This document shows positions 3,901-23,789 of a DNA stretch of 43,803 nt, piece after piece. The notes under the pieces are model-generated. The model was not told the DNA's origin and did not search any database. It saw nothing but the letters and a program-made list of their open reading frames with translations. The first letter of the stretch is position 1, and each line of letters opens with the position of its first letter. A program made the translations under genes and the position numbers. Location of the stretch: NCBI GenBank assembly GCA_019308995.1, contig JAFDHD010000014.1, forward strand, positions 1 to 43,803. The letters run 5' to 3'. This DNA comes from Deltaproteobacteria bacterium. GTDB taxonomy: Bacteria > Desulfobacterota > Desulfarculia > Adiutricales > JAFDHD01.

Positions 3901-4010
3901 AGCCCCTTGTTTTTCAGTTCAGCCTCCAGCGCCGCTTTAACCTCCAAACTCCCTGAGGAAATACATCCAGTGCCTGTGCATATCAAAGCATGGGAACGAA
4001 AAGTCTTCAT
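960..4010 (-). CDS. NuoF-GltD fusion flavoprotein (NADH-binding subunit)
   Basis: This 1016-residue protein joins two oxidoreductase modules. Residues 1-100 are a thioredoxin-like [2Fe-2S] domain (CTGTGCISSGS, GCIGYCAAGP). Residues 110-535 are NuoF/HydB-like, with the FMN/NADH motif GLRGRGGAGFPTG near 164, CNADEGDPG near 194, CGEETALIASIEG near 285, and a 4Fe-4S site CGKCPPC plus a later cysteine near 456-502. From about 545 a GltD-like half follows, with cysteine clusters near 545-596, an FAD motif VIGGGPSG near 637, an NAD(P) motif VIGGGNSA near 767, and a C-terminal EACRCLRC motif. The start chosen is ATG at 4010, preceded by GGAG and overlapping the upstream stop; a TTG one codon earlier is less likely. 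It probably oxidises or reduces NAD(P)H in a soluble multi-subunit complex. Its usual catalytic partner is decayed downstream. Confidence 0.9.
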   Translation of the reverse strand: MKTFRSHALICTGTGCISSGSLEVKAALEAELKNKGLADVVEVGETGCIGYCAAGPFMSVYPEKVLYQNLTVDDVPELVSEHFQKGRPVERLFYREPDKKEKIPEMLELPFFANQRIVVLRNKGLINAEKIDEYIARDGYLGAAKALLEMAPQEIIEEVKASGLRGRGGAGFPTGRKLELGAGSNGRLKYMICNADEGDPGAFMDRSVLESDPHVILEGMIIAAKAINAHYGYIYCRAEYPLAVRNLNIAIEQATEYGLLGKDILGSGFEFGLEVYQGAGAFVCGEETALIASIEGKRGMPRPRPPFPAESGIFGHPTINSNVETYANIPRIILQGSAWYASIGTETSKGTKVFALTGDVNNNGLVEVPMGTTVGTIIYDIGGGIPNGKRFKAVQLGGPSGGCIPIQHLNAPVDYESITKLGAIMGSGGMIVMDEDTCMVDMARFFMEFVQDESCGKCPPCREGTKRMLEILEKICEGRGEPEDLTTLEELSAQILNSALCGLGQTAPNPVLSTLRYFRNEYEAHIYEKRCPAVVCSSLFKTPCQHACPVEMDISSYVALVRAERLNDAYKVLLKTNPFPSVCGRVCNHRCESKCRRGALDQAISIKYLKRFITDNGQKPTLEKVPVTRQQKIAVIGGGPSGLTAARELALRGYAVTVFEELSQAGGMLRWGIPEYRLPRDILQEEIDDILSLGVELRCKTKVGQDISWNNLRKDFDVIYLATGAPQSTSLGVEGEELKGVDGAVEFLRELNMGEKPTVGKRVAVIGGGNSAVDASRSALRLGAEEVTILYRRLRPDMPAQEEEIKAAEDEGVNIEFLVNPLRFTGDNSHVGKVVCQRMSLGEFDASGRRRPVPLEDDFLTVDADQVIVAIGQATDLAFATQNGDINVSKRSFVKIEAGMRARASEAMIFAGGDVVTGPDTVIGAIAAGQKAAVEIDTAIRENNGEPAYIPPPQEEIEIPKVLEEIPDRLREIMPETSAAERVRDFSEVELGFSKEAALAEACRCLRCDLSEEEEA

Positions 4011-4420
4011 CAACTATCTCCTAATTCTTTCTCCGATCGGTTTGAGTGCTCACTGCCTTTGGCCATTACAAATTCGTCTTGGACCTCTCCTTCCAGAATA
4101 TGGCGTCTAAAAATCTGACGCATCTTGTTTGGCTCCACAAAGTGATAACGGATGGGCTCCTGATTCAACAGCTCAACCGTGACGATAGGTTCTTCACTGC
4201 ACAAACCTATACAGCCCGAGGTAGTGACCGTAATGTCCTTACGATCGCACTGACTGACCTCGTCCATCAATGCTTCCATTACCTGGCGCGCACCGGAGGC
4301 GATGCCACAGGTGCCCATATGAACCGTGATCTTAGCCGTGGCCCCTCCTTCACGTAAAGCGGTGTCTTTAAGGACCTGATCTTTAATTTTTTTTAAATCT
4401 TCCAATTTTAACTTGGCCAT
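4010..4420 (-). CDS. Thioredoxin-like [2Fe-2S] ferredoxin
   Basis: A 136-residue protein of the thioredoxin-fold [2Fe-2S] ferredoxin family that accompanies NADH-linked hydrogenases and formate dehydrogenases. The motifs HMGTCGIASGAR (Cys38) and SGCIGLCSEEP (Cys70, Cys74) are as usual in this family, in which the first site carries one cysteine. ATG at 4420 is preferred because GGAGGAG lies eight bases upstream; the GTG at 4429 overlaps that site. Its stop overlaps the start of the NuoF-GltD gene, so the two are translationally coupled. The likely role is electron relay between the NuoE and NuoF subunits and a partner enzyme in the cytoplasm. Confidence 0.85.
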   Translation of the reverse strand: MAKLKLEDLKKIKDQVLKDTALREGGATAKITVHMGTCGIASGARQVMEALMDEVSQCDRKDITVTTSGCIGLCSEEPIVTVELLNQEPIRYHFVEPNKMRQIFRRHILEGEVQDEFVMAKGSEHSNRSEKELGDS

Positions 4421-4484
4421 GTTAAGCACTCCTCCATAGATCTCAAAGCTCCGTTCAGATCGGCCCTAACTTGGCCAATCCTTC

Positions 4485-4856
4485 CTAGAGGTTTTCACGT
4501 AAAAATCTAATCACTTCAGGATGACTCAGAAGCACGCCTTCCAAGGCGGCCTTAATCTCCCGAGTATAAAGAATAAAAACGTTCGAGCCGACCTTCTGCG
4601 TATACAAAAAATCAACCTCCGCATGCCCCACAATCAGACCAGATATATTGGCTGTGTTGACTACCTGGATATTGATTAGATCGGTCAGAAGGAGGTTGCC
4701 TGATTTGACAAAGGTCAGAACCTAGCTCATGAGGTCTGTGCATTCAATATGTTCTACCGTCTGATCGAGATGATCCTCACTGGCCAGGACTTCGGCATCC
4801 AGAATCTCAACAACCTGGCGGAGGTTCACACCGCCTTCCGGATTAGACTCATGCAT
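4485..4856 (-). pseudogene. DRTGG-domain protein with one amber stop
   Basis: The minus strand holds a continuous 123-codon frame that resembles small DRTGG-domain proteins. Its pieces are NLRQVVEILDAEVLAS, ECTDLMS, VLTFVKSGNLLLTDLINIQV, NTANISGLIVGHAEVDF and NVFILYTREIKAAL. It is interrupted only by TAG at 4722-4724 (codon 45), where family members I recall have an acidic residue (LMSDVLxFV). Proteins of this type often sit between nuoE-like and nuoF-like genes in hydrogenase or formate dehydrogenase operons, as here. A single nonsense mutation in an otherwise intact frame points to recent inactivation. Sequencing error or amber readthrough are the alternatives. Confidence 0.65.
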
Positions 4857-4886
4857 ACAGGCTAGTATCGTCCCCCGAATTAAGAT

Positions 4887-5384
4887 TTATTCATATCGGT
4901 TAACAACATCCATGATTTTGTTCGAGGTCATGCCGCGGTGGCTTTCGCCATCGATCATGGTCACTGGAGCAAGACTACACGCCCCCAAGCAGCGAACAGC
5001 CTCTAAAGTAAACCTTCTGTCCTCAGTTGTTTCCCCGACCTTGATATTAAGTTTATGCTCCAGGCGGTTCAGTGTCTGGTTGGCCCCTTTGACAAAACAG
5101 GCCGTCCCTAAACAGACACGGATGATATGGCGTCCCCGAGGCACCATCGTAAAAAAGGAGTAAAAAGTCACCACGCCAAAGACGTCGCTCCCGGCAATTC
5201 CGAGTCCTTTGGCCAGATAATCCTGAATATAGGCTGGCAGATAACCACAGACTTCCTGGGTGGCCTGAAGGGCAGGAATAAGCGAACCCCGAGAACCTTT
5301 AAGCCGGGCGATTATCTCGTCAACCTTATTCAACATTTCATCCGTGATGTCGTCCGGCCTTGTATTAAAAATTGTTCGGTCCAT
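4887..5384 (-). CDS. nuoE: NuoE-like [2Fe-2S] subunit
   Basis: A 165-residue NADH dehydrogenase 24 kDa-type subunit (NuoE/HydC/HoxE family). The four cluster ligands are in standard positions: CLGTAC (Cys91, Cys96) and CLGAC (Cys132, Cys136). The N-terminal helical part LIPALQATQEVCGYLP and GVVTFYSFF are typical. ATG at 5384 is chosen because GGGAG lies eight bases upstream; an in-frame upstream extension carries no family similarity. It heads the run nuoE, DRTGG relic, [2Fe-2S] protein, nuoF-gltD, Mo-enzyme relic. The protein should pass electrons between NuoF flavin and the partner enzyme in the cytoplasm. NuoE could also belong to a bifurcating hydrogenase, but no hydrogenase gene is visible. 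Confidence 0.88.
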   Translation of the reverse strand: MDRTIFNTRPDDITDEMLNKVDEIIARLKGSRGSLIPALQATQEVCGYLPAYIQDYLAKGLGIAGSDVFGVVTFYSFFTMVPRGRHIIRVCLGTACFVKGANQTLNRLEHKLNIKVGETTEDRRFTLEAVRCLGACSLAPVTMIDGESHRGMTSNKIMDVVNRYE

Positions 5385-5504
5385 GCTCGTAACTCCCTGA
5401 GAATGACAATCAATCGTATATGCTGATAACATAAAACCCGCGGCGGGGCAAGGCTTTTTAGGATAGAAGGCAAGGCCCTTGAGAGGCCGAATTGGATTAA
5501 GCAA

Positions 5505-10098: not shown

Positions 10099-11028
10099 TT
10101 AAACCGTCGGCCGAGGCAGTAACCCGGCCGCTTCCACGATCTCAGGAACCTTTTCTTCCCATTCAATGGCCATCAGATGCACACCGGCCACGCCGGGAAT
10201 TTCTTTGAGCTCTTGAATCTGATCCAAGGCGATCTTTATGCCTTCTTGGGCCTGGCTCCCCTTTTCTGCACCTCGAAGGCGGCTGATGACCTCTTCCGGA
10301 ACGTCCATGCCAGGAACGGACCTTTGCATGTATCGAGCCATACCAACTGACTTCATGGGCGTGATTCCAGCCAGGATATAAACCTTTTCCGTTAGACCCA
10401 TGTCATAGGCCTGCTTCATGTACTCCCTGAATTTATCCATGTTGTAAATACACTGGGTCTGGACGAAATCAACACCTGCCGCAATCTTCATGGCTAGACG
10501 GTGAACCCTGAACTCAAATGGGTCGGCAAAAGGGTTTACCGCCGCCCCGATAAACAGCCTCGGCTCGGTTCCTTCCTCCATCTCCTGGCCGGAAATCAAC
10601 TTTCGCTCATCCCTCATCATCTTCACCGTCTGGATGAGCTGGATGGAATCCAGGTCAAAGACATTTTTGGATTCAGGATGGTCGCCGAATTTCTGGTGGT
10701 CGCCGGACAGACAGAGCATATTCCGGATACCCAGAGAGGTTGCGCCCAAAATGTCGGACTGGATGGCAATGCGATTGCGGTCCCGACAGACCATTTGCAT
10801 GTTGGCCTCAATGCCTTCCTGCTGTAAGATCAGGCATCCGGCCAGACTGGACATCCTGACCACACTGGTCTGATTGTCGGTCACGTTTACCGCGTCCACA
10901 TGATTTTTAAGATACTTCGCTTTCTCCCGAACGACCTCAGCATTCGAACTGCGCGGCGGACCGCATTCCCCGGTTATGACAAACTGGCCGGCGTTAAGAA
11001 GCTTTTCCAGGTTACTGTCTGATTTCAT
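10099..11028 (-). CDS. metF: Methylenetetrahydrofolate reductase
   Basis: A 309-residue MetF-family TIM-barrel flavoprotein. Recognisable parts are FVITGECGPPRSS at the start, AVNVTDNQTSVVRMSSL, the folate/FAD region NMLCLSGDHQKFGDHPESK, GAAVNPFADPFEFRVHRL, and DFVQTQCIYNMDKFREY. It catalyses interconversion of methylene-THF and methyl-THF, the last step of the methyl branch of the Wood-Ljungdahl pathway. Its start overlaps the stop of metV by four bases (ATGA), so MetV and MetF are translationally coupled, as expected for the MetVF enzyme. The upstream HdrA and MvhD proteins are its likely electron partners. It is the last gene of the operon. Confidence 0.92.
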   Translation of the reverse strand: MKSDSNLEKLLNAGQFVITGECGPPRSSNAEVVREKAKYLKNHVDAVNVTDNQTSVVRMSSLAGCLILQQEGIEANMQMVCRDRNRIAIQSDILGATSLGIRNMLCLSGDHQKFGDHPESKNVFDLDSIQLIQTVKMMRDERKLISGQEMEEGTEPRLFIGAAVNPFADPFEFRVHRLAMKIAAGVDFVQTQCIYNMDKFREYMKQAYDMGLTEKVYILAGITPMKSVGMARYMQRSVPGMDVPEEVISRLRGAEKGSQAQEGIKIALDQIQELKEIPGVAGVHLMAIEWEEKVPEIVEAAGLLPRPTV

Positions 11029-11693
11029 AATTTCAAGTCCTCCCTCACGATTTTGCGAGGACCGCCGTCACGGCTTGTGGTCCAATTCTTGAGGGGCTTA
11101 ACTTGTGTAAGTTGATTCAGCTTGCCCTGCTTCATGAGCTTGGTCACGATCAGGTGCCAGACGCAGTCAATCTCCTTATCAACCTCACACTTGCCATCTG
11201 CCGATCCTCCGCAGGGGCCGTTGAGAAGGCTCTTGGAACAGCGGGCGATAGGGCAGTAACCGCCGAAAAGGTGAACCTTGCAATCTCCACAGGCCTGGCA
11301 GTATTCGGCCCATATACCATGCTCCATGGATCCGCCCATGAAACAAGTATTAAGGGCCGGATAGACCTGGGCCTCAGGAAAACGTTCGGAAATAAACTGC
11401 GGGCCAATACTGCAAGCCATAGATAAAATGAGGTCGTAATTTGGCACCTGTTCATCGAGTGCCTCGATGTACTCCGGATCACATTGACGCTCCAACGTCA
11501 ATTCGTCCACCTCAAGAGGGTTATTGTCCTTTAACCTGGCAAGGCGGAGGGTAGAAGCCAGAATGCCAACTTCTTTGCTCCCACCGGCGTTACAGACCGT
11601 GACGCAGCCTTTGCAACCCACGATGAGAATCTTTTTCGCATCCTTGATCATTTCAATAATTTCATCAAGCGGTTTTCTCTCTCCTACAATCAT
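11025..11693 (-). CDS. metV: MetV, zinc/Fe-S partner subunit of MetF
   Basis: A 222-residue cysteine-rich protein of the 'methylenetetrahydrofolate reductase C-terminal domain' family (MetV). The cysteine groups are VGCKGCVTVCNAGG near the N-terminus, YCQACGDC near the middle, and GGYCPIARCSKSLLNGPCGG after it, which match the family's zinc and Fe-S ligands. MetV forms a heterodimer with MetF and links it to electron-transfer partners in acetogens. GAGGAAGG precedes the ATG. It lies between mvhD and metF in one minus-strand operon, with 22 bases to mvhD. Confidence 0.9.
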   Translation of the reverse strand: MIVGERKPLDEIIEMIKDAKKILIVGCKGCVTVCNAGGSKEVGILASTLRLARLKDNNPLEVDELTLERQCDPEYIEALDEQVPNYDLILSMACSIGPQFISERFPEAQVYPALNTCFMGGSMEHGIWAEYCQACGDCKVHLFGGYCPIARCSKSLLNGPCGGSADGKCEVDKEIDCVWHLIVTKLMKQGKLNQLTQVKPLKNWTTSRDGGPRKIVREDLKL

Positions 11694-11715
11694 GGCCTTC
11701 CTCTATGTATAACTC

Positions 11716-12144
11716 TCAGGCTGCCTGGGCCTTGGTTCTTGCAAACGGACTAGGTCCCAGCTCTTTAATTTTGGCGGTGAATTCTTCAGCTACCTGCGCG
11801 AAACGTGGTCCGTCGGCCGTAGACATGTTATACATCGCAACCCGCTCCGGTTCCACACCCATGCTTTCCAACACCGTCTGTACGTATTCCACTCTCTTAC
11901 GAGCTTTGATATTCCCGTTGATATAGTGACAGTCGCCTTCTATGCAGCCAGCCACGTACACCCCATCAGCTCCGTCTTCAAGAGCCTTAAGCAGGTGCAG
12001 GATGTCCACCCGACCCGTACAGGGCACGAGGATGATCTTGACATTGGGCGAATACTGCAGTCTCATCGAACCTGCCAGGTCCGCAGCAGCATAAGCTCAG
12101 TACTGACAGCAGTAAGCGATTATTTTCGGTTCAAACGCAGCCAT
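11716..12144 (-). CDS. mvhD: MvhD-type hydrogenase Fe-S subunit, predicted selenoprotein
   Basis: The full gene is 142 codons and contains an in-frame TGA at 12097-12099 (codon 16). Upstream of it the frame reads MAAFEPKIIAYCCQY, then the TGA, then AYAAADLAGSMRLQ; family members have cysteine at that place (CCxYCAYxAADLAG). A conventional reading would start at the internal ATG 12066 and lose the N-terminal cluster motif. Later cysteines are in VPCTGRVD and AGCIEGDCHY. MvhD-family selenoproteins are known, and a hairpin suited to a bacterial SECIS follows the TGA. The protein probably binds a [2Fe-2S] cluster and passes electrons to or from HdrA. It is cotranscribed with hdrA (24-base gap) and metVF. 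Confidence 0.88.
12067..12099 (-). promoter_or_regulatory. Predicted bacterial SECIS element after UGA codon
   Basis: Downstream of the TGA (12097-12099) the minus strand can form a seven-pair stem, CGGACCT with AGGTTCG (12083-12077 and 12073-12067, one G-U pair), around a three-base loop GGC. The loop's first G lies 21 bases after the UGA, inside the window usual for bacterial SECIS elements, and a loop G is the key recognition base for SelB. Confidence 0.6.
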
Positions 12145-12168
12145 ACTTCTTACCTCATCTCAATAGTC

Positions 12169-15100
12169 TTAAGCGATTAAAGCCTTCGTCTTGGCCAGCA
12201 GTTGCTCGTCCGTGAAGTGCTGAAGGCTGATGGCTTTACCCGGGCACTCGGAGACACAGGCGCCGCAGCCCTGACAGATTGCCGGCTCAATAACGGCATG
12301 GCCTTCTTCGCCAATATGGGGAACGCCAAAAGGACAGGTCCGAACACAGGTCAGGCAGACGGCGCATTTGTCCGGATCAACCACAGCCACAACACCGCCA
12401 ACGCTTATCGAATCCTTGGCTAAAATCGTTGTGGCCCTGGCGGCCGCGGCCCGAGCCTGCGCAATGGACTCCTCGATTGGCTTGGGATAATGGGCCAGAC
12501 CGGCCAGGAACATACCTTCATTGGTAAGGTCCACCGGCCGGAGCTTCATATGAGCCTCCAGAAAAAAGCCCTCGGCATTCAGGGAAATTTTATAAACCTC
12601 GGAAATCGCCTCACCTTCGTTGGGCAGGATGGCCGTGGCCAGGCATAAGATATCGCAGCTGATCTCAAGCGGTCGGCCTAAAATGGGGTCGGCCACCAAA
12701 ACCTTGAGTTTGTCCGGACTGACGGCCTCGACCTTGGGTTTGTCCTCGAGATCGTAACGGATGAAAACGACACCCAGTTTGCGGGCCTCGCGGTAAAGCG
12801 ACTCCCGGAAACCATAGGTCCTGATGTCGCGGTAAAGGATGTAAACTGAGGTTTCAGGGTTTGTCTCTTTGATTTTGATGGCGCTCTGCACGGAGTGACT
12901 GCAGCAGACCTTGGAACAGTAAGGCCGTTCCGGCTCCCGTGAACCGACGCACTGGATAAAGGCCACGGTCTCGGCCTCTTTGATGATTTCGGACCCTGCT
13001 GCCATGAGTTCATCCATCTCCAGAGCCGTCAAAACGCGGTCATGCCGACCGTATAGATATTCATCGGGTTTCAGCGGTGTTCCGCCGGTTGAGACGATGA
13101 CCGTCCCGTGGGGAATGCTGACCGTTTTTTCCGGGGTCTTGATTTCGGAGACAAAGTTACCCAGGAATCCGTCACACTTGGTAATCTCTGAGTTAAAGTA
13201 AATGTTTATCAATTCAGACGACTCAACCTTGTCAATCAAGCTGAGGGTGTAGGACTTGATGTCTTCGCCGCGCCAGGTTTGGTTGAGTTTGAGGGCGTTG
13301 CCGCCCAGGTGGTCGCTTTTCTCAACCAGATGGACCGGAAATCCTTGCTCAGCCATGGCCATGGCCGCGGTCATCCCGGCTACACCCCCGCCAACGATGA
13401 CGGCTTCTTTGGTCAGACCTAGTTCGGTCTGGTGCAGGGGCTCGAGTAAGGCGACCTTGGCCACCGCGCCGCGGACCAGGTCTTTGGCCTTCTGAGTGGC
13501 CTTTTCCGGATCGTCACGATGCACCCAGGAGTCTTGATCCCTGATGTTGGCCATTTCAAAGAGGTATTTATTCAGACCCGCCTGGGCCAGAGTCTCCCTA
13601 AACATCGGTTCATGGGTACGGGTCGAGCAGGAGGCCACGACGACGCGGTTGAGGTTGTGTTCGACCACGGCCTGTTGAATTTTGCCTTGGGTGTCCTGGG
13701 AACAGGTGAAAAGGTTATGATCCGCCAGCTCGACAAAAGGCAGCGTGCTGGCATATTCAGTCACAGCAGGCACGTCCACTACCCCGCCGATATTAATGCC
13801 GCAATGGCAGACGAAGACACCGATCCGGGGAGCTTGGCCAGATACGTCCTGCTCCGGGGGGTACTCGATCGTCTTGGTTTGGGTGAAACGAATTTCGGAC
13901 AGTTCTGATGTGGCGGCGCTGGCCGCGGCCGACGCTTCCATGACCGAGATGGGAATGTCCTTCGGTTCGCTGATGGCGCCGCAGACGTATATTCCCGGCC
14001 TGGAGGTCGCCACCGGCTCAAAGGAGGAAGTCATGACGAAACCGTCTTCGGTTAAATCAACCCCAAGCCGCTCGGCCAGTGCGGTGAATTCGGCGGTAGG
14101 CTCCAGGCCAACTGAGAGGACAACCATGTCAAACTCTTCGGTCTTACCCGCCCCGCTTTCGTCCACATAGCGAATAACGAGGTTTTCCTCGGGTGTCTGC
14201 TCCACGGTATGGACTCGGCAGCGAACGAAATGGATGCCTTCCTCCTTGGCCCGTTCGTAATATTTTTCAAAATCTTTGCCATAGGTGCGCATATCCATGA
14301 AAAAAATGGTGGTGTCCAATTCTTGGACCGAGTGCTCCTTGGCGATCATGGCCTCTTTGATGGCGTACATACAGCAAACGGCTGAGCAGTATGGCCGATC
14401 ACATGTATTGATATCCCGTGAGCCGATACACTGGAGCCAGGCAATTTTCTTCGGCTCCTTGTTGTCCGACGGCCTGATTAGATGCCCCTGATACGGCCCC
14501 GAAGCGGACAGGATCCGTTCAAACTCCATCGAAGAAAGTACGTTCGGGCTGGCGGCATACTGGTAGGTTTGAAAGCGAGCGGGGTCAAAGGCGTCAAACC
14601 CGGCGGCCAGAATCACGGAACCGATATCCATTTCGATGACTTCATCCTGCATCAGGTGCGTTTCAAGAGTCACCGCATCGGCTTCGCAGGCCGCAATACA
14701 TTGATGACACTCACAGCATATCCCGCAGGCCAGACATCGCCCCGCCTCAAGCTGACCCTGCTCAGGATCAAAGCCAAGCTCGATCTCATCAAAGGTTGTT
14801 TTCCGTTGCTTAAGTGAAATCTTAGGCATTTCAAGGCGGGACCTTTTCTCGTTATCCGTTGGTATGTCCCGCCAGTTTTTATCGTCCAGGCTTCGGTCAA
14901 TGGGTTTACGCCCGGCGGTTAAATCTTCACCCCTGAGGTAACGATCAATAGATATGGCCGCCTCCTTGCCACCGGCGACGGCTTCAATGGCCGAAGCAGG
15001 GCCGGTCTGCATGTCACCGGCTGCAAAGACACCGCTCCGACCGGTGGCCAGGCTGACAGGGTCAACCTCCACAGTTCCTCCCCGGGTGAAGGTCAGTCCG

Positions 15101-16608
15101 TCAACATTGGTCAAGGCGTCAACAATCGGCGCCTGACCAATAGCCACGATAACCGTGTCTGCGTCAATGGTCTCGATCCTGGTCTCGTCATACTCCGGGG
15201 CAAATCGGCCTTCAGCGTCAAATACCTGGGTCACGGCCTTGAGCTCTATCCCGGTGACGCGGCCGTCTTCCACCAGAAAACGACGGGGACCCCAGGAATG
15301 GAGGAAGCTGATCCCTTCTTCCGCAGCCTCTTCAAGCTCCCACTCCCAGGAAGGCATTTCATCGGCCGATTCCAGGGAAACCATGGTCACCTCTTTATCT
15401 CCCAGACGAAGGGCGCATCGAGCCGCATCCACGGCCACGTTGCCTCCGCCGATGACCGCCACTTTTTTGCCAAGCGGCGGCGCCTGACCCAGATTGACGT
15501 CCTTCAGAAAAGACATGGCCGGATGGATGCCTTCGGCATCCTCGCCTTCGACGTTTAGACTCCGGCTTCCATGAGCGCCCATGGCAAGAAAGAAGGCCTT
15601 ATAGCCTTGAGCCTCCAGATTCTCGAGACTCAGGTCAGGTCCAAGCGGCGTGTCGTACCTGATCTCAACCCCCAGCCGGGTGATAGCCTCAACCTCCCGG
15701 TCCAGGACCTCCGGCGGCAGCCGATAATCAGGAATACCGACGCGCAGCATCCCGCCAGGCACCGAATTGGCCTCAAAAATGGTTGATTTGTAACCTTTTT
15801 TGGCCAGATGAAAGGCCGCAGCGAGTCCAGCCGGGCCGGCTCCGATGATGGCCACCTTCTCCGATTTTTCTTCCTCACAGGAAGTCTCGACCTCCATAAT
15901 ATCGGCCTGATCGGCCGCCAGACGCTTGAGAGCCCGGATGGCCACAGGCCGGTCAACTTCAGAGCGCCGACAGACCTCCTCGCAAGGATGAAAACAAATA
16001 CGCCCCAGGACCCCTGGCAGAGGTAAAACCTCCATGATGACTTCCAGGGCTTCCTTGAAGCGCCCTTCCTTCACCAGAGAGACATACCCGTGAGCGTTGA
16101 CGTTCGCAGGGCAGGTTATGGTACACGGCGAGGGGTCAAGCTTCTGAATGGCAAAAGCATTCGGATAGGCTTGAGCATAAGGCTTAAAAGTGGCTCTGTC
16201 CATGTCAAGCCCCATGTTAAACAGGCTGGGCACCTCGATCGGACAGGCCGAGGCGCATTCTCCGCACCCGGTGCATTTTTCCAGGTCAATATACCGGGCC
16301 TTTTTCAGAACCTTGGCCTTCATGTTCCCAGATGCGCCCTTCACATCAAGCAACTCCGCACAGGTATGAACCTCTATATTGATGTGCCCGCCGACTTCGT
16401 TGAGTTTGGGCGAGATGATACACATGGAACAATCGTTGGTTGGAAAGGTCTTGTCCAACTGGGCCATACGTCCGCCGATAGCCGGTGTTTTTTCAACCAG
16501 GTGAACGTAATAGCCCATCTCCGCCAGGTCCAGGGAGGCCTGAATCCCGGCGATACCGCCGCCAACAACCATCACCGTGCCTATTTTGTCTATATTTATA
16601 TCTGACAT
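12169..16608 (-). CDS. hdrA: HdrA-GltD-HdrA giant fusion flavoprotein
   Basis: A 1479-residue protein with three flavin modules. Residues 11-125 are an HdrA FAD domain (VVGGGIAGIQASLDLAE, NDCSMCIISPKLNEVGGH) and its 4Fe-4S site CTGCGECASACP. Residues 160-560 are an inserted GltD-like NAD(P)H module, with cysteines near 162-213, an FAD motif IIGAGPAG near 254 and an NAD(P) motif VIGGGNVA near 385. HdrA resumes at about 605 (FDEIELGF, CLACGICCECHQC) and runs to 905. A second, complete-looking HdrA starts near 928 (GVFVCHCGINIGG) with an FAD motif VGGGVAG near 1072 and two C-terminal 4Fe-4S sites (1415-1455). It probably bifurcates or confurcates electrons among NAD(P)H, ferredoxin and MetVF through MvhD. 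ATG 16608 is preferred to an upstream TTG/ATG extension. No hdrB or hdrC is visible. Confidence 0.93.
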   Translation of the reverse strand: MSDINIDKIGTVMVVGGGIAGIQASLDLAEMGYYVHLVEKTPAIGGRMAQLDKTFPTNDCSMCIISPKLNEVGGHINIEVHTCAELLDVKGASGNMKAKVLKKARYIDLEKCTGCGECASACPIEVPSLFNMGLDMDRATFKPYAQAYPNAFAIQKLDPSPCTITCPANVNAHGYVSLVKEGRFKEALEVIMEVLPLPGVLGRICFHPCEEVCRRSEVDRPVAIRALKRLAADQADIMEVETSCEEEKSEKVAIIGAGPAGLAAAFHLAKKGYKSTIFEANSVPGGMLRVGIPDYRLPPEVLDREVEAITRLGVEIRYDTPLGPDLSLENLEAQGYKAFFLAMGAHGSRSLNVEGEDAEGIHPAMSFLKDVNLGQAPPLGKKVAVIGGGNVAVDAARCALRLGDKEVTMVSLESADEMPSWEWELEEAAEEGISFLHSWGPRRFLVEDGRVTGIELKAVTQVFDAEGRFAPEYDETRIETIDADTVIVAIGQAPIVDALTNVDGLTFTRGGTVEVDPVSLATGRSGVFAAGDMQTGPASAIEAVAGGKEAAISIDRYLRGEDLTAGRKPIDRSLDDKNWRDIPTDNEKRSRLEMPKISLKQRKTTFDEIELGFDPEQGQLEAGRCLACGICCECHQCIAACEADAVTLETHLMQDEVIEMDIGSVILAAGFDAFDPARFQTYQYAASPNVLSSMEFERILSASGPYQGHLIRPSDNKEPKKIAWLQCIGSRDINTCDRPYCSAVCCMYAIKEAMIAKEHSVQELDTTIFFMDMRTYGKDFEKYYERAKEEGIHFVRCRVHTVEQTPEENLVIRYVDESGAGKTEEFDMVVLSVGLEPTAEFTALAERLGVDLTEDGFVMTSSFEPVATSRPGIYVCGAISEPKDIPISVMEASAAASAATSELSEIRFTQTKTIEYPPEQDVSGQAPRIGVFVCHCGINIGGVVDVPAVTEYASTLPFVELADHNLFTCSQDTQGKIQQAVVEHNLNRVVVASCSTRTHEPMFRETLAQAGLNKYLFEMANIRDQDSWVHRDDPEKATQKAKDLVRGAVAKVALLEPLHQTELGLTKEAVIVGGGVAGMTAAMAMAEQGFPVHLVEKSDHLGGNALKLNQTWRGEDIKSYTLSLIDKVESSELINIYFNSEITKCDGFLGNFVSEIKTPEKTVSIPHGTVIVSTGGTPLKPDEYLYGRHDRVLTALEMDELMAAGSEIIKEAETVAFIQCVGSREPERPYCSKVCCSHSVQSAIKIKETNPETSVYILYRDIRTYGFRESLYREARKLGVVFIRYDLEDKPKVEAVSPDKLKVLVADPILGRPLEISCDILCLATAILPNEGEAISEVYKISLNAEGFFLEAHMKLRPVDLTNEGMFLAGLAHYPKPIEESIAQARAAAARATTILAKDSISVGGVVAVVDPDKCAVCLTCVRTCPFGVPHIGEEGHAVIEPAICQGCGACVSECPGKAISLQHFTDEQLLAKTKALIA

Positions 16609-16814: not shown

Positions 16815-18581
16815 CTAGAAGAGCCCTTTGACTTTTCCGCTCACGGTGTCAACGTCAACACGTTTAAAAGCCGGATCCGAGGCCGTGCCAGGCATGAGGC
16901 TGATCGCACCGGCCACCGGTACGATAAAACCGGCTCCGCCGTATATCAGGATGTCTCGGATTCTGAGGTTCCATCCCTTGGGCACTCCCTTCACAGACGG
17001 GTTGTCCGTCAGGGAGAGGTGAGTCTTGACCATGCAGGTCCCAAGCCCGGAGAGCTCGGAATCCTTTTCTATCCGCTCCGCCTTCTGCAGCGCTTCAGGC
17101 GTATATTCTACACCGTCCGCGCCGTAGACCTCGACCGCGATCTTCTCGATGCGCTGACGCAGAGGCATATCAAGCTCATAGAGCAGCTTGAATTCATTTT
17201 CTTCCTCGCAGGCGTCAACGACGGCATCGGCAAACTCCAGAGCCCCGTCACTGCCTTTAAGCCAGTGGCTGGAAACGGGCGCCCGGGCCCCGGCCTGTTC
17301 AGCCAGACGGCGTACCATGGCAATCTCGGCTTCAGTGTCAGTGTAAAAGGAGTTGATGCAAACCACAGGATTGATCCCGGCCTTCTTAACGGTCTTAACA
17401 TGGTGAACCAGGTTTTCGCATCCCTTTTCAACCCATTCCACGTTTTCATCCTCGTACTCTTTTGGCATAGGCCGGCCCGGAATGGGAATAGGCGCACCGC
17501 CGTGGCACTTGAGGGCGCGAATGGTGGCTACAATAACGGCGCAGTGAGGCTTGAGGCCTGAAAAACGGCATTTCAAGTTCCAGAATTTCTCAAATCCAAT
17601 GTCCGCACCAAAACCGGATTCAGTGATATGGTAGTCGGCCAGCTTCAATGCGACCCGGTCAGCAATAATCGAGCTCTGTCCAATAGCGATATTGGCGAAG
17701 GGCCCGGCATGAACAAAGACCGGTTGACCTTCAAGGCTTTGAAGCAGGTTCGGGTTGATAGCTTCGACCATCCAGGCGGTCATGGCGCCGGCAACCTGAA
17801 GGTCTTCTGTGGTGATTGGTTTGCCGCTCTTATCATAGGCCACCACGATCCGGCCCATGCGTTCGCGCATGTCCTTCAGGTCCGTGGCTACAGCCAGGAT
17901 GGCCATAACTTCCGAACTGACCGCGATACCGAATTTGGAAGGCATCAGAAAACCATCCATCCTCCCGCCAATACCGATTACAATGTTGCGCAAGGCCTGG
18001 GCGCAGAAATCCATAATCCAGCCCATCTCCACATTTTTAGGGTCTATGTTGAGCCGTGAGCCCATGTTTCGTCTCGCCATGGTCTCGTCATCATAGTTGA
18101 ACTCGTGCTGAATGCGCGATGTCACCGCGACCATGGCGAGGTTGTGGGTGTTCATGATGGCGTTGATATCGCCGGTGAGTCCCAGGGAGAATGGTGTGAG
18201 AGGGATACACTGGGCCATACCGCCACCGGCCGCCGAGCCCTTGATGTTCATAGTCGGACCGCCGGAAGGCTGACGAATGGCGGCCATGACGTTTTGGCCG
18301 CGTTTGCCCATACCCTGAACCAGGCCCATGGTTGAAGTGGACTTACCTTCTCCCAAGGGCGTTGGAGTGATGGCCGTGACATCAATGTATTTTCCATCCG
18401 GCTTATCCTTCAGCCTTTCCAGGACCTTAGCAAAATCAACCTTGGCCACGTAATGGCCATGGGGGAGCAACTCCTCCTTTTCGAGACCCATCTCTTCCCC
18501 GAGCTGGTAAACAGTTTTCATTGTTTCTTCAATCGCTTCCGCTATCTGCCAATCTTCCATTTTGGTGGGATCTAGAGCCAT
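16815..18581 (-). CDS. fhs: Formate--tetrahydrofolate ligase
   Basis: A 588-residue formyl-THF synthetase of normal length or slightly longer. The ATP-binding loop [19 protein letters not shown] is near residue 92. [26 protein letters not shown]-like [10 protein letters not shown], and [17 protein letters not shown] near the C-terminus are family signatures. It joins formate to THF with ATP, giving 10-formyl-THF, the entry step of the methyl branch of the Wood-Ljungdahl pathway and the formyl donor for purines. A strong AAGGAGGAG precedes the ATG by five bases. It has its own terminator and a hairpin-rich upstream region. A missing FolD elsewhere in the window means the next step is encoded outside it. 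Confidence 0.96.
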
Positions 18582-19277: not shown

Positions 19278-20129
19278 ATGTTCAAAATACTGGAAAGAGA
19301 AGAAATGGCCCAGGGCACTGTGGTTAAAAACGTTGTTGAGGCGCCTAAGGTGGCGGCCAGGGCCAAACCGGGTCAATTTGTCATTCTTAAGGCCAACGAG
19401 ACCGGAGAGCGTATACCGCTGACTATGGCTGACACGGACCTGGAAAAAGGCACCATCACCATTATTTATCAGGTCGTGGGTAAGTCCACTGCTTTGTTCA
19501 AAACGATGCAGGTCGGTGAAGGCTATCAGGACTTGCTCGGACCTCTCGGTCGGCCAACCCACATCGAGAAGCGCGACGGCCTGGTCATCTGCATCGGTGG
19601 CGGAACCGGGACGGCCGTAGTGCATCCCATAACCAAGGCTTTCAAGGAAAGAGGTAATGAAGTCGTGGCCATCATCGGTTCGCGCACCAAGGATTTGCTC
19701 ATTCTGGAAGACGAGATGACTGCGGCCTCCAGTGAGATCAGAGTCTGCACCGACGATGGGTCTTACGGCCACCACGGTTTTGTGACCGAAGTGCTTGAGG
19801 AGTACCTTAAAGGAGATAGAAAAATAAGTCTGGTCGTCGCCGCCGGCCCGGTGCCGATGATGAAGTTCGTTTCAAAGATGACCAAGGAATACGATGTCCA
19901 GACCATGGTCAGTCTTAATTCCATAATGATTGATGGCACCGGTATGTGCGGCGGCTGTCGCGTTTCAGTTGATGGGAAAACACGTTTCACCTGCGTCGAA
20001 GGCCCGGAGTTTGACGGGCACCAGGTTGACTTCGACGAACTGATGCAGCGCCTGTCCGCTTACCAGGAAATGGAAAAAGTGGCCATGGAAAAATTTGAAC
20101 ACGATTGCAAAATTGGTCTGAAAAGGTAA
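19278..20129 (+). CDS. nfnA: NADH-dependent ferredoxin:NADP+ oxidoreductase, subunit A
   Basis: A 283-residue protein of the ferredoxin-NADP reductase/PyrK-like group, the small subunit of NfnAB. The flavin-binding motif ERIPLTMAD lies near residue 44 and the nucleotide-binding stretch VICIGGGTGTAVVHPITK near 103. The C-terminal [2Fe-2S] site is GTGMCGGCR (Cys224, Cys227) plus Cys239 in FTCVEGPEFD. With NfnB it couples NADH and reduced ferredoxin to NADP+ reduction by flavin-based bifurcation in the cytoplasm. AGAGGA precedes the ATG. NfnB follows after 31 bases. In isolation it could be read as sulfide dehydrogenase subunit B, but the pairing and context favour Nfn. Confidence 0.9.
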   Translation: MFKILEREEMAQGTVVKNVVEAPKVAARAKPGQFVILKANETGERIPLTMADTDLEKGTITIIYQVVGKSTALFKTMQVGEGYQDLLGPLGRPTHIEKRDGLVICIGGGTGTAVVHPITKAFKERGNEVVAIIGSRTKDLLILEDEMTAASSEIRVCTDDGSYGHHGFVTEVLEEYLKGDRKISLVVAAGPVPMMKFVSKMTKEYDVQTMVSLNSIMIDGTGMCGGCRVSVDGKTRFTCVEGPEFDGHQVDFDELMQRLSAYQEMEKVAMEKFEHDCKIGLKR

Positions 20130-20160
20130 TAGTTTTCATCCGGATGCGGAGATAGAAAAG

Positions 20161-21561
20161 ATGGCAGAAAAAAAAGAAAAGATTCCCCGGCAGCATATGC
20201 CGGAACAAGAGCCCCAGGTTAGGCGTAGTAATTTTGACGAGGTTCCCCTTGGATATTCGCCTGAGACGGCCCAGCTTGAGGCCAGCCGGTGCCTTCAGTG
20301 CAAGAGACCATCCTGTATAAGCGGTTGTCCGGTCGAGATTGATATTCCCGGTTTTATCCGTTTAATCAAGGAAGGCGACTTCAGCGGCGCTATCGCCAAG
20401 CTCAAGGAGAAGACGGCTTTGCCAGCGGTTTGCGGACGAGTCTGCCCTCAGGAAGTCCAATGCGAGCTTGTGTGCGTCCTGGGCAAAAAGGAAGAGCCCG
20501 TGGCTATTGGTCGTTTGGAGAGGTTTGCCGCTGACATGGCTCGGGAGAAAGGCGACAAGACGTTGCCTCCGGTTGCCGACAAGACCGGAAAGAAGGCGGT
20601 GGTGGTAGGTTCTGGACCGGCCGGGGTGACGGTGGCCGGAGATTTGATCCTCAAAGGCCACGATGTAACTATTTTTGAGGCTTTCCACAAAGCCGGTGGA
20701 GTGCTTGTTTATGGTATTCCCGAATTCAGGCTGCCCAAGGCCATTGTTCAGGATGAGATGGACTCTTTGGCCGAGTTAGGCGTCAAGTTTGAACTGAATC
20801 AGGTCGTGGGCCGTACCATCACAGTGGACGAGCTTTTAGAAGAATACGATGCGGTTTTCATTAGCGTGGGCGCCGGGTTACCCCGTTTCTTGGGCGTCCC
20901 GGGCGAAAATCTCATCGGTATTTATTCGGCCAATGAGTATCTGACCCGTTCCAATCTCATGAAGGCCTATCTCTTTCCAGAATACGATACACCTATTGTT
21001 CGAGGTAAAGACGTTTGCGTACTCGGAGCGGGCAACGTGGCCATGGACTCGGCCCGCACAGCACTGAGACTGGGCGCGGAAAGAGTAAGGATCGTTTACC
21101 GTCGGTCGCGTGAGGAAATGCCTGCCCGGGCTGAAGAGATTCACCATGGAGAAGAGGAGGGCGTGGAGTTCTATCTCCTGTCGAACCCGGTCGAGTTTAT
21201 TGGTAACGAAAACGGCCGGGTCAAGGCCATGGATTGCATTAAGATGGAACTGGGTGAGCCGGATGAATCCGGCCGGCGGCGTCCTATTCCGATTAAAGGC
21301 TCCAACTTTATCCTGGAGACCGATCTGGTGGTTATTGCCGTGGGTGCTGGCGCCAACCCATTGATCACGTCCGCAACTCCAGGCCTGGAAGTCAACAAAT
21401 GGGGCTATATCCTGGCTGAACCGGAGACAGGCAAGACCAAGAAATCCAGGGTCTGGGCGGGCGGCGATATCGTTACCGGGCAGGCCACGGTTATTTTAGC
21501 CATGGGCGCCGGAAGAATAGCGTCCAACTCCATTCATCAATATCTTACCTGGGGTTGGTGA
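20161..21561 (+). CDS. nfnB: NADH-dependent ferredoxin:NADP+ oxidoreductase, subunit B (GltD-like)
   Basis: A 466-residue GltD-family flavoprotein, of normal length for NfnB/SudA. The N-terminal region has FDEVPLGYSPETAQLEASRC and a cysteine group at 44, 47, 52 and 56, then CGRVC (91, 95), Cys101 and Cys105, giving two 4Fe-4S sites. The FAD motif VVGSGPAG is near 148 and the NADP(H) motif VLGAGNVAMDSART near 287. YRRSREEMPARAEEI and WAGGDIVTGQATVI are typical. It binds NADPH and holds the bifurcating FAD. A GGAG site precedes the ATG. Together with NfnA it would supply NADPH and reduced ferredoxin balance to the one-carbon genes around it. Confidence 0.92.
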   Translation: MAEKKEKIPRQHMPEQEPQVRRSNFDEVPLGYSPETAQLEASRCLQCKRPSCISGCPVEIDIPGFIRLIKEGDFSGAIAKLKEKTALPAVCGRVCPQEVQCELVCVLGKKEEPVAIGRLERFAADMAREKGDKTLPPVADKTGKKAVVVGSGPAGVTVAGDLILKGHDVTIFEAFHKAGGVLVYGIPEFRLPKAIVQDEMDSLAELGVKFELNQVVGRTITVDELLEEYDAVFISVGAGLPRFLGVPGENLIGIYSANEYLTRSNLMKAYLFPEYDTPIVRGKDVCVLGAGNVAMDSARTALRLGAERVRIVYRRSREEMPARAEEIHHGEEEGVEFYLLSNPVEFIGNENGRVKAMDCIKMELGEPDESGRRRPIPIKGSNFILETDLVVIAVGAGANPLITSATPGLEVNKWGYILAEPETGKTKKSRVWAGGDIVTGQATVILAMGAGRIASNSIHQYLTWGW

Positions 21562-21577
21562 TCCCGATTTATAAGGG

Positions 21578-21603
21578 AAAGGGAGGGGCCTGCCCCTTCC
21601 TTT
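21578..21603 (+). repeat. Hairpin between nfnB and folE2
   Basis: AAAGGGAGGGGC (21578-21589) pairs with GCCCCTTCCTTT (21592-21603), with one G-U pair. It ends 12 bases before the folE2 start and includes the only Shine-Dalgarno-like purine run there. No T-run follows, so it is a poor terminator; it could slow read-through or mask the ribosome site. Confidence 0.45.
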
Positions 21604-21615
21604 ACGGATTTAAGA

Positions 21616-22398
21616 ATGCGCGAAGAAATAGTAGACGTACAAAACCAGAGAGATCACCGAAACATCGAGGTTGACAAGGTCGGTGTAAAGAATATCCGCT
21701 ACCCTATTACCGTCCTCGATAAGGCCAAAGGCAAACAGCGGACCGTGGCGAGCATAGATATGTACGTCAACCTGCCTCGCCAGTACAAAGGCACTCACAT
21801 GTCCCGCTTCATTGAGATTTTGTCCGAGTACTGCGACGAGATCTCCTTGAGGAGTTTGAGGATTATCCTTGAGGAGATGAATCGGCGTTTGAACGCCAAA
21901 TCAGCACACCTGAAGCTGACCTTCCCCTACTTCATTGAAAAAAAGGCCCCGGTGAGCGGCACGGCCAGCCTGATGGAGTATCAGTGTTCTTTCAACGGGT
22001 CCCTGAATCATGAGAGCCTGGATATCATTATCGAACTTGGAGTGCCCATCACCACGCTCTGCCCGTGCTCCAAGGAAATCAGTGAGGTGGGGGCTCATAA
22101 TCAGCGGGGTGAAGTGCGGGTGGCCGTTCGCTTTAATAAGTTTTTATGGATTGAGGATATCATTCGCCTGGTGGAAACCTCTGCCTCTGCCGAGGTCTTT
22201 TCCTTACTTAAACGAAATGATGAAAAGCTGCTCACTGAAACGGCCTACAGAAACCCCATGTTCGTGGAAGATGTGGTGCGCGAGATTGCCCAAAAATTGA
22301 ACAACGATAGGAATATCACCTGGTTTTCGGTCGGGGCGGAAACCTTCGAGTCCATTCACAATCATAACGCTTACGCCTTTATCGAACGTCGGAAATAA
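21616..22398 (+). CDS. folE2: GTP cyclohydrolase FolE2 (type IB)
   Basis: A 260-residue GCYH-IB/MptA-family enzyme. The active-site region TTLCPCSKEISEVGAHNQRG (Cys149, Cys151, His161) matches the metal-binding cysteine and histidine of the family, and VGVKNIRYPITVLDK and GTHMSRFIEIL are conserved. It converts GTP to 7,8-dihydroneopterin triphosphate, the first step of folate (or preQ) synthesis, and can work with metals other than zinc. The start has no clear ribosome site apart from purines locked in the hairpin just upstream. It follows nfnAB and precedes a folate-using purine enzyme, so the group has a folate theme. Confidence 0.93.
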   Translation: MREEIVDVQNQRDHRNIEVDKVGVKNIRYPITVLDKAKGKQRTVASIDMYVNLPRQYKGTHMSRFIEILSEYCDEISLRSLRIILEEMNRRLNAKSAHLKLTFPYFIEKKAPVSGTASLMEYQCSFNGSLNHESLDIIIELGVPITTLCPCSKEISEVGAHNQRGEVRVAVRFNKFLWIEDIIRLVETSASAEVFSLLKRNDEKLLTETAYRNPMFVEDVVREIAQKLNNDRNITWFSVGAETFESIHNHNAYAFIERRK

Positions 22399-22499
22399 GC
22401 TTTTTAAAAGATAAGGCTGTCTTCAATTAACAGAAGGAGCTTTTTAAAAAAAGTCCCCCTCTGAAAGCACGACATTTTCTTAAATTAGGAGCAGACCAA

Positions 22500-23789
22500 A
22501 TGAGTGACCTTAAGACCGCGTACCGGCGCCTGATGGATGACCACTTCCCTGATGAGATGAAGATCACCTTGGGCGAAACGACCCTTATTTACAGGAAACA
22601 GACGTGGAAAATTGAGGATGAGCAAGGGAATTTGGTGGAAAAAGGCTTGCGCTACGGCGAAAATCCCGGCCAGGAGGCCGCTCTGTACCGGCTGGTCAAT
22701 GGCAACCTGACCCTTGGAGAAATTGAGTTCATTGGCCCGGGCAGGGAACTGGTCAGCGGCCTGGACGCGGACGCCATGCTCCAGTTTGGCAAACATCCTG
22801 GCAAGATCAACCTGACCGACGTGGATAGCGCCTTGGGCATCCTTCGCTATCTGACCAAACGGCCCACAGCAGTAATTGTCAAGCATAACAACCCTTGCGG
22901 TGTGGCCAGTGCCGCCAGTCTGGCTGAGGCTTATGCTAAGGCCAACACGGCCGACCGAGTAGCCGCCTTTGGAGGAGCCGCCAGCTTTAACCGGGCCATA
23001 GACAAGGAGACCGCTAAACTGCTTCAGAATAACTACCTGGAGGTGGTGGTCGCCCCGGAATATGAAGAAGGGGTTCTTGACATTCTAACTAAAAAAAAGG
23101 ACCTGCGCATCATCCGGATCAAGGCTTTAGACCGCCTTGAGGATTACACCTTGACTCGTTTTCTGGACTTCAAGAGTCTTATGGACGGCGGTCTGATCGT
23201 CCAGCAATCGGCTGTCAATACCATTCTGTCCAAAGAAGACTTCCAGCCTGCGGTGGCCGAATACCAGGGCCGGACCTATAAGCCGGTGCGCGAGCCGACC
23301 GACCGTGAATACGATGACCTCGTTTTCGGCTGGGCCGTGGAACAGGGCGTGACTTCTAACTCCGTACTTTACATCAAGGACCAGGTTACCGTGGGCATCG
23401 GCACGGGTGAGCAGGACCGGGTCGGGGTGGCGGAGATCGCCATTTTCAAGGCTTACTCCAAATACGCTGACGCTCTTTGCTTCAAACTTCACGGCCGGTC
23501 TTATAAAGAACTGACTCTGGACGTGGCTGAAGGCAAGGCCGATAAAGAATTGCAGGATCAGATTGATAATGAAACCAAGGCCAATAAAGCCGGATTACCC
23601 GGCGCCGTCATGATCTCAGACGCCTTCTTCCCCTTTAGAGACGGTGTGGACGTGGCCATTAAAGAAGGCATTTCAGGCATCGCTCACCCGGGCGGCTCTG
23701 TCAGAGACTGGGAATCAATCGAGGCCGCCAACCAGGCCGACCCGCCCGTGGCCATGGTCTTTACCGGCCAGCGGGCCTTCAAGCATTAA
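22500..23789 (+). CDS. Stand-alone AICAR transformylase (PurH C-terminal type)
   Basis: A 429-residue protein equal to the AICAR formyltransferase part of PurH, without the N-terminal MGS-like IMP cyclohydrolase domain of the usual roughly 520-residue bifunctional enzyme. It shows LRYGENPGQ near 50, the catalytic-type KHNNPCGVA (Lys128, His129), and SDAFFPFRDGVDVAI followed by GIAHPGGSVRD near the end. It uses 10-formyl-THF to formylate AICAR in purine synthesis. AGGAG precedes the ATG by eight bases. IMP cyclohydrolase activity must come from another gene or from an unrecognised part of this one. A short direct repeat (AGCTTTTTAAAA) lies in the gap before it. Confidence 0.9.
   Translation: MSDLKTAYRRLMDDHFPDEMKITLGETTLIYRKQTWKIEDEQGNLVEKGLRYGENPGQEAALYRLVNGNLTLGEIEFIGPGRELVSGLDADAMLQFGKHPGKINLTDVDSALGILRYLTKRPTAVIVKHNNPCGVASAASLAEAYAKANTADRVAAFGGAASFNRAIDKETAKLLQNNYLEVVVAPEYEEGVLDILTKKKDLRIIRIKALDRLEDYTLTRFLDFKSLMDGGLIVQQSAVNTILSKEDFQPAVAEYQGRTYKPVREPTDREYDDLVFGWAVEQGVTSNSVLYIKDQVTVGIGTGEQDRVGVAEIAIFKAYSKYADALCFKLHGRSYKELTLDVAEGKADKELQDQIDNETKANKAGLPGAVMISDAFFPFRDGVDVAIKEGISGIAHPGGSVRDWESIEAANQADPPVAMVFTGQRAFKH

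Follow-up and report, generated by a model that had tools for sequence, protein, structure and literature searches.

A GltD-bearing HdrA encoded with MvhD, MetV and MetF and without adjacent hdrBC: a candidate NADH-linked methylene-tetrahydrofolate reductase of sulfate-reducing Desulfobacterota

The MetFV-HdrABC-MvhD complex of Moorella thermoacetica is a known methylene-tetrahydrofolate (methylene-THF) reductase (Mock et al. 2014; PMC9430772, PMC5861303). Its HdrA, which extends to amino acid (aa) 1487, carries an extra ferredoxin and TrxR-like domain, is interrupted by GltD, and has three flavin adenine dinucleotide (FAD) sites, with flavin residues E696/K750 and E1204/K1246 (PMC9430772). 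In purified form the complex accepts viologen as electron donor for methylene-THF reduction and, with NADH as donor, reduces viologen; a bifurcation close to equilibrium (about -5 kJ/mol) to an unidentified acceptor has been proposed (PMC5861303). Here we describe a Moorella-type variant, an hdrA-mvhD-metV-metF operon without hdrBC, in a 43,803-nucleotide stretch of DNA from a Deltaproteobacteria bacterium (contig JAFDHD010000014.1), referred to below as the window. It is a genuine methylene-THF reductase operon of a sulfate reducer, serving folate reduction in the Wood-Ljungdahl pathway. Comparisons with the systems of named organisms rest on published descriptions.

The genes follow one another on the minus strand in the order given by the original prediction and are tightly spaced, with 24 nt between hdrA and mvhD, 22 nt between mvhD and metV, and a 4-nt overlap of metV and metF. 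The features, in window coordinates, are as follows.

12169..16608, minus strand: hdrA fusion, 1479 aa, comprising HdrA unit 1 with GltD insert and HdrA unit 2 with a C-terminal 2x[4Fe-4S] domain
14725..16140, minus strand: GltD-type NAD(P)H module (residues ~157-628) in the ferredoxin domain of HdrA unit 1
14356..14520, minus strand: E697 and K751 of HdrA unit 1, equivalents of the bifurcating-FAD residues E356/K409 (PMC9430772, PMC12054007)
12886..13014, minus strand: D1199/Q1241, replacing E/K in the second flavin unit
11716..12144, minus strand: mvhD, 142 aa, a selenoprotein, with its start at 12144 and UGA (selenocysteine 16, Sec16) at 12099-12097
12068..12082, minus strand: hairpin resembling a selenocysteine insertion sequence (SECIS), GGACCUGGCAGGUUC, downstream of the mvhD UGA
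11025..11693, minus strand: metV, 222 aa, methylene-THF reductase iron-sulfur subunit
10099..11028, minus strand: metF, 309 aa, methylene-THF reductase flavin subunit

Pfam and NCBIfam models matched two HdrA units and one GltD/Fer4_20 module in the hdrA product, which bears out the predicted insertion of a full GltD into the ferredoxin domain of the first unit. An N-terminal HdrA part (residues 1-155) is followed by GltD/Fer4_20 (157-628), the HdrA middle part (631-905) and a linker (927-1060), after which a second TrxR-like unit ends in the 2x[4Fe-4S] domain. On the solved HdrA structure 5ODC, the insert maps between positions 290 and 293 and separates the two cluster motifs of the inserted ferredoxin domain, as in the GltD-inserted HdrA named type III in methane-metabolising archaea (PMC12054007). 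The RCLAC motif lies at the C-terminal end of this module, the opposite end from the Nfn GltD subunit of the window (20161-21561), where it is N-terminal.

The insert had been taken to set this protein apart from the Moorella enzyme, a distinction that falls, since the published Moorella HdrA has the same interruption. The two proteins are co-linear (E696/K750 in 1487 aa for Moorella, E697/K751 in 1479 aa for the window), and both systems combine GltD inside the N-terminal ferredoxin domain of a two-unit HdrA, two TrxR-like units, and MvhD, MetV and MetF in one operon. In Moorella the operon also contains hdrB and hdrC, and both flavin units of HdrA carry E/K; the window operon lacks hdrBC, and its HdrA has D/Q in the second unit. 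Judged from sequence, the window complex most likely works like the Moorella enzyme despite these two departures.

Several other described systems share parts of this arrangement. Archaeal type III HdrA also has GltD in the ferredoxin domain; it differs in being closest to type I, with one TrxR-like unit, and in a Bathyarchaeota cluster with mvhADG (PMC12054007), and the available part of that text does not mention MetF. The Hdr-type methylene-THF reductase of Sporomusa ovata likewise joins MetVF to HdrA and MvhD, in interactions seen by pulldown, and differs in the presence of HdrBC, the lack of GltD, and an H2-linked membrane chain (PMC9430772). In the sulfate reducer Desulfobacterium autotrophicum, HdrL is an Hdr/glutamate-synthase fusion followed by mvhD, partly as selenoproteins; HdrL1 differs in that it adjoins dsr genes and has no described metVF link (PMC2702500). 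Seep-SRB1g sulfate reducers have HdrABC adjoining metF (PMC10553843). The metFV-hdrA cluster of Thermacetogenium phaeum resembles the window in that hdrA and a gene for an MvhD-like protein adjoin metVF, with hdrBC outside the cluster; its HdrA is 31% identical to that of Moorella and, unlike for the window HdrA, no GltD insert is mentioned in the available part of its description (PMC6895022). Because the Moorella, archaeal type III and Thermacetogenium precedents are published, neither the GltD-HdrA fusion nor the absence of linked hdrBC is new alone. New here are an HdrBC-less Desulfobacterota clade, the residue pattern of the unit-1 and unit-2 flavins, the loss of an NADPH-type Arg-Arg, and a Sec MvhD with a SECIS-like hairpin.

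Profiles of HdrB and HdrC gave no match near the operon (the window covers 27 kb on its upstream side and 10 kb on its downstream side); the HdrB with CCG domains that marks an HdrABC heterodisulfide reductase is thus missing at the operon, as originally noted, and the closest relatives likewise have no hdrBC in cis. HdrBC encoded elsewhere might still complete the complex, either as a Moorella-like hexamer or as a quinone-linked chain, and we regard this as quite improbable. Its precedent is Thermacetogenium, where hdrBC adjoins a formate dehydrogenase and a link to quinone has been proposed (PMC6895022). The genome of the window (G000) has one HdrB by profile search, on contig C30, and most of the relatives searched in family f2 have one lower-scoring HdrB-like gene at about 200 bits. 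The C30 hdrCB set, however, adjoins its own hdrA; no HdrB was found at E<=1e-20 in a same-genus genome that has the operon (G038, 90% complete); and the window HdrA lacks the unit-2 E/K pair typical of HdrB-containing operons.

This pair was present in 20 of the 22 operons that contain HdrB, and none of the 36 operons lacking both HdrB and HdrC had it. The count covers operons with sufficient upstream sequence or with HdrB found, and scores one locus (L120) as HdrB-less although hdrCB sits about 4.5 kb downstream. The unit-1 pair was kept in 72/72 HdrA homologs. On an HdrA tree built by a quick method, with the GltD region and both unit-2 pair columns excluded, HdrB presence and unit-2 E/K needed 2 changes each; the counts are for that reason not an independent statistical test, and we rejected a statistical law linking HdrB to E/K as overclaimed. 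With 11 changes needed for GltD presence, the NAD(P)H port has been gained or lost often, and no correlation between GltD and HdrBC was seen. The predicted coupling through several flavins is accordingly narrowed: one canonical bifurcating site, in unit 1, stands, and the second HdrA flavin is without the bifurcation residues.

MetV searches gave matches in 33/41 genomes of the order (E 1e-20), 35/37 of the class (1e-20) and 121/197 of the phylum (1e-50); a contig scan with MetV gave a single same-genus locus only. Architectures were taken from neighbourhoods read among the MetV-matching genomes. The order hdrA(GltD)-mvhD-metV-metF without hdrBC, often with fhs upstream, was found in the window and at loci L051, L092, L099, L102-L104, L153 and L154, and the same order with neither GltD nor hdrBC at L054, L062, L069, L071, L073, L076 and L078. 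A Moorella-like hdrC-hdrB-hdrA(GltD)-mvhD-metV-metF order was found at L110, L116, L123, L125, L137, L161 and L165, while L138, L140, L141 and L143-L145 encode HdrC and no HdrB, in the order hdrA-mvhD-hdrC-(degenerate mvhD-like, CCNYT)-metV-metF. Homologous operons thus include hdrBC in some cases and lack it in others, and the window operon falls within a broad Desulfobacterota clade whose operons lack HdrBC and commonly run fhs-hdrA-mvhD-metV-metF. A diverged MetF-like gene (about 33% identity) lies directly 5′ of hdrA in the HdrBC-less operons L127-L129, L136, L148 and L150.

The window is a contig of a metagenome-assembled genome (MAG), and two paralogous hdrA genes of the same MAG break at contig ends beside GltD, which could suggest that the fusion or the missing hdrBC arose in assembly. 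The fusion recurs in 38/65 aligned homologs, including the single-contig genome G041, and both fusion and gene order recur on an independent 48-kb contig of another MAG (L041/L051); we rejected the artefact, whose probability we take to be negligible. The two paralogs (L042 on C7, L043 on C5) are about 95% identical in DNA over the final 240 nt at the GltD/contig end, falling to about 60% beyond it. This pattern resembles gene conversion or an exchange of GltD modules, and it explains why the contigs break there. L043 (8925-13699) is a second metVF copy, hdrA-mvhD(Sec)-metV-metF, whose metV is 56% identical to that of the window and whose HdrA has K at the K409 position of unit 2. L042:5314-11317 holds a third hdrA, beginning at the GltD end at the contig edge; after it come an mvhD of the Cys type and genes resembling Flx, and no HdrBC was seen within that stretch.

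An NAD(P)H port supplied by GltD, as originally predicted, is supported on a MetVF enzyme with HdrA and MvhD, and its cofactor can be refined. In the aligned NADPH enzymes (NfnL, Stn, GltD), the strand past the Rossmann glycines ends in YRR. At this position the GltD module of the window HdrA reads VSLES, and relatives from its class read MLES, CLEK or CLEQ. Because the Arg-Arg of the NADPH enzymes is lost, the cofactor of the window HdrA is probably NADH; most GltD-type members of family f2 retain YRR, and their cofactor is possibly NADPH. The glycine motif of the window, GGGNVA, fits GXGXXA and departs from the GXGXXG rule of type III HdrA (PMC12054007), so the NADH assignment is a one-motif prediction.

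The mvhD gene is cut short by open reading frame callers because of an in-frame TGA at codon 16, which is Cys in homologs and which we read as Sec; the extent first predicted for the gene was corrected to that listed above. The UGA stands at the CxxC position of the selenocysteine MvhD/FrhD family (PF02662, CxxU), a known family that includes Moorella (PMC1794560, PMC13188914). Among 53 UGA-type genes, the 18 nt encoding ADLAGS past the UGA take 7 forms, versus 44 in 50 Cys-type genes, a strong codon conservation as expected of a SECIS hairpin, and the genome has a tRNA-Sec gene (77.6 bits). Folding energy was not distinctive (z -1.14; Sec-type versus Cys-type, p 0.55) and was set aside in favor of codon-level conservation.

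From the gene complement we infer a complex in which NADH would enter at the GltD module. From the FAD and [4Fe-4S] clusters of GltD, electrons would cross the split ferredoxin domain and reach the unit-1 HdrA flavin with E697/K751. There the path would fork: one arm would run via the MvhD [2Fe-2S] and MetV [4Fe-4S] clusters to MetF and methylene-THF, and the other would supply a low-potential carrier, probably ferredoxin. Such a coupled reaction would be near equilibrium and may reverse (confurcation) in acetate oxidation. We give an even chance to such a four-subunit, HdrBC-less, NADH-linked enzyme, bifurcating or reversible. Consistent with it are the domain and family matches, the co-linearity with the HdrA of the purified Moorella complex, the conservation of the operon across many genomes, the VSLES motif, the HdrB search of G038, the fhs and NfnAB-like genes in the window, and a genome that encodes ACS, DsrA and NiFe hydrogenase and gave no RnfC match above the cut-off.

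Other points weigh against it: HdrBC-less, GltD-bearing members are known from genes alone, in many close relatives the operon is otherwise complete but has no GltD, and the single hdrCB set on C30 could act in trans. The GltD insert also fills the usual ferredoxin port, which leaves the exit of low-potential electrons unclear. HdrA(GltD) and MvhD may do no more than feed electrons from NADH into MetVF, uncoupled from ferredoxin, an alternative that we consider unlikely, though less so than completion by distant HdrBC. The filled port, an argument also made for type III HdrA (PMC12054007), is in keeping with it, as are the unit-2 flavin without E/K; the Sporomusa enzyme, for which no coreduction of ferredoxin or NAD(P)+ and no bifurcation was detected (PMC9430772); and Thermacetogenium, whose metVF-hdrA cluster has no linked hdrBC and which shows NADH-dependent activity in one fraction (PMC6895022). 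Simple wiring would, however, make two HdrA units superfluous, and the universal unit-1 E/K pair argues for a bifurcating flavin.

Two further features lie upstream of the operon.

16815..18581, minus strand: fhs (formate-THF ligase), the upstream neighbour, in an order conserved in several relatives
16681-16653, minus strand: promoter-like TTGACA-17-TATATA between fhs and hdrA, a sequence match only

The genes hdrA and fhs, on the same strand, are 206 nt apart, and the intergenic region also holds an inverted repeat followed by TTTT at 16779-16747 (a reading of the letters only). The single promoter that had been proposed has this sequence match in its favor, but a consensus scan of the window, which accepted only second hexamers with T as the sixth base and loops of up to 8, listed neither it nor the inverted repeat. 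An nfnAB-like pair, folE2 and an AICARFT/IMPCHase-domain gene (19278-23789) form a folate/redox neighbourhood adjoining fhs and metVF. The stretch 960-5504 encodes a NuoF-GltD fusion (1017 aa, YRR motif), another GltD fusion of the window besides that in HdrA, along with a small gene and a nuoE-like gene.

It has long been asked how energy is conserved when methylene-THF is reduced in the Wood-Ljungdahl pathway, and for the Moorella enzyme a second electron acceptor has yet to be identified. A smaller natural version, with no HdrBC, one canonical bifurcating flavin, and homologs with and without GltD, offers a direct comparative system for locating the bifurcating flavin and for probing the roles of HdrBC and of the NAD(P)H port. 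We tentatively suggest, as a possibility that falls short of an even chance, that a minimal HdrBC-free bifurcating or confurcating NADH:methylene-THF:ferredoxin enzyme, with an active unit-1 flavin and a relaxed second one, may be the standard coupling device of the C1 branch in a broad clade of sulfate-reducing Desulfobacterota, in which GltD would be a swappable NADH/NADPH port that sets specificity.

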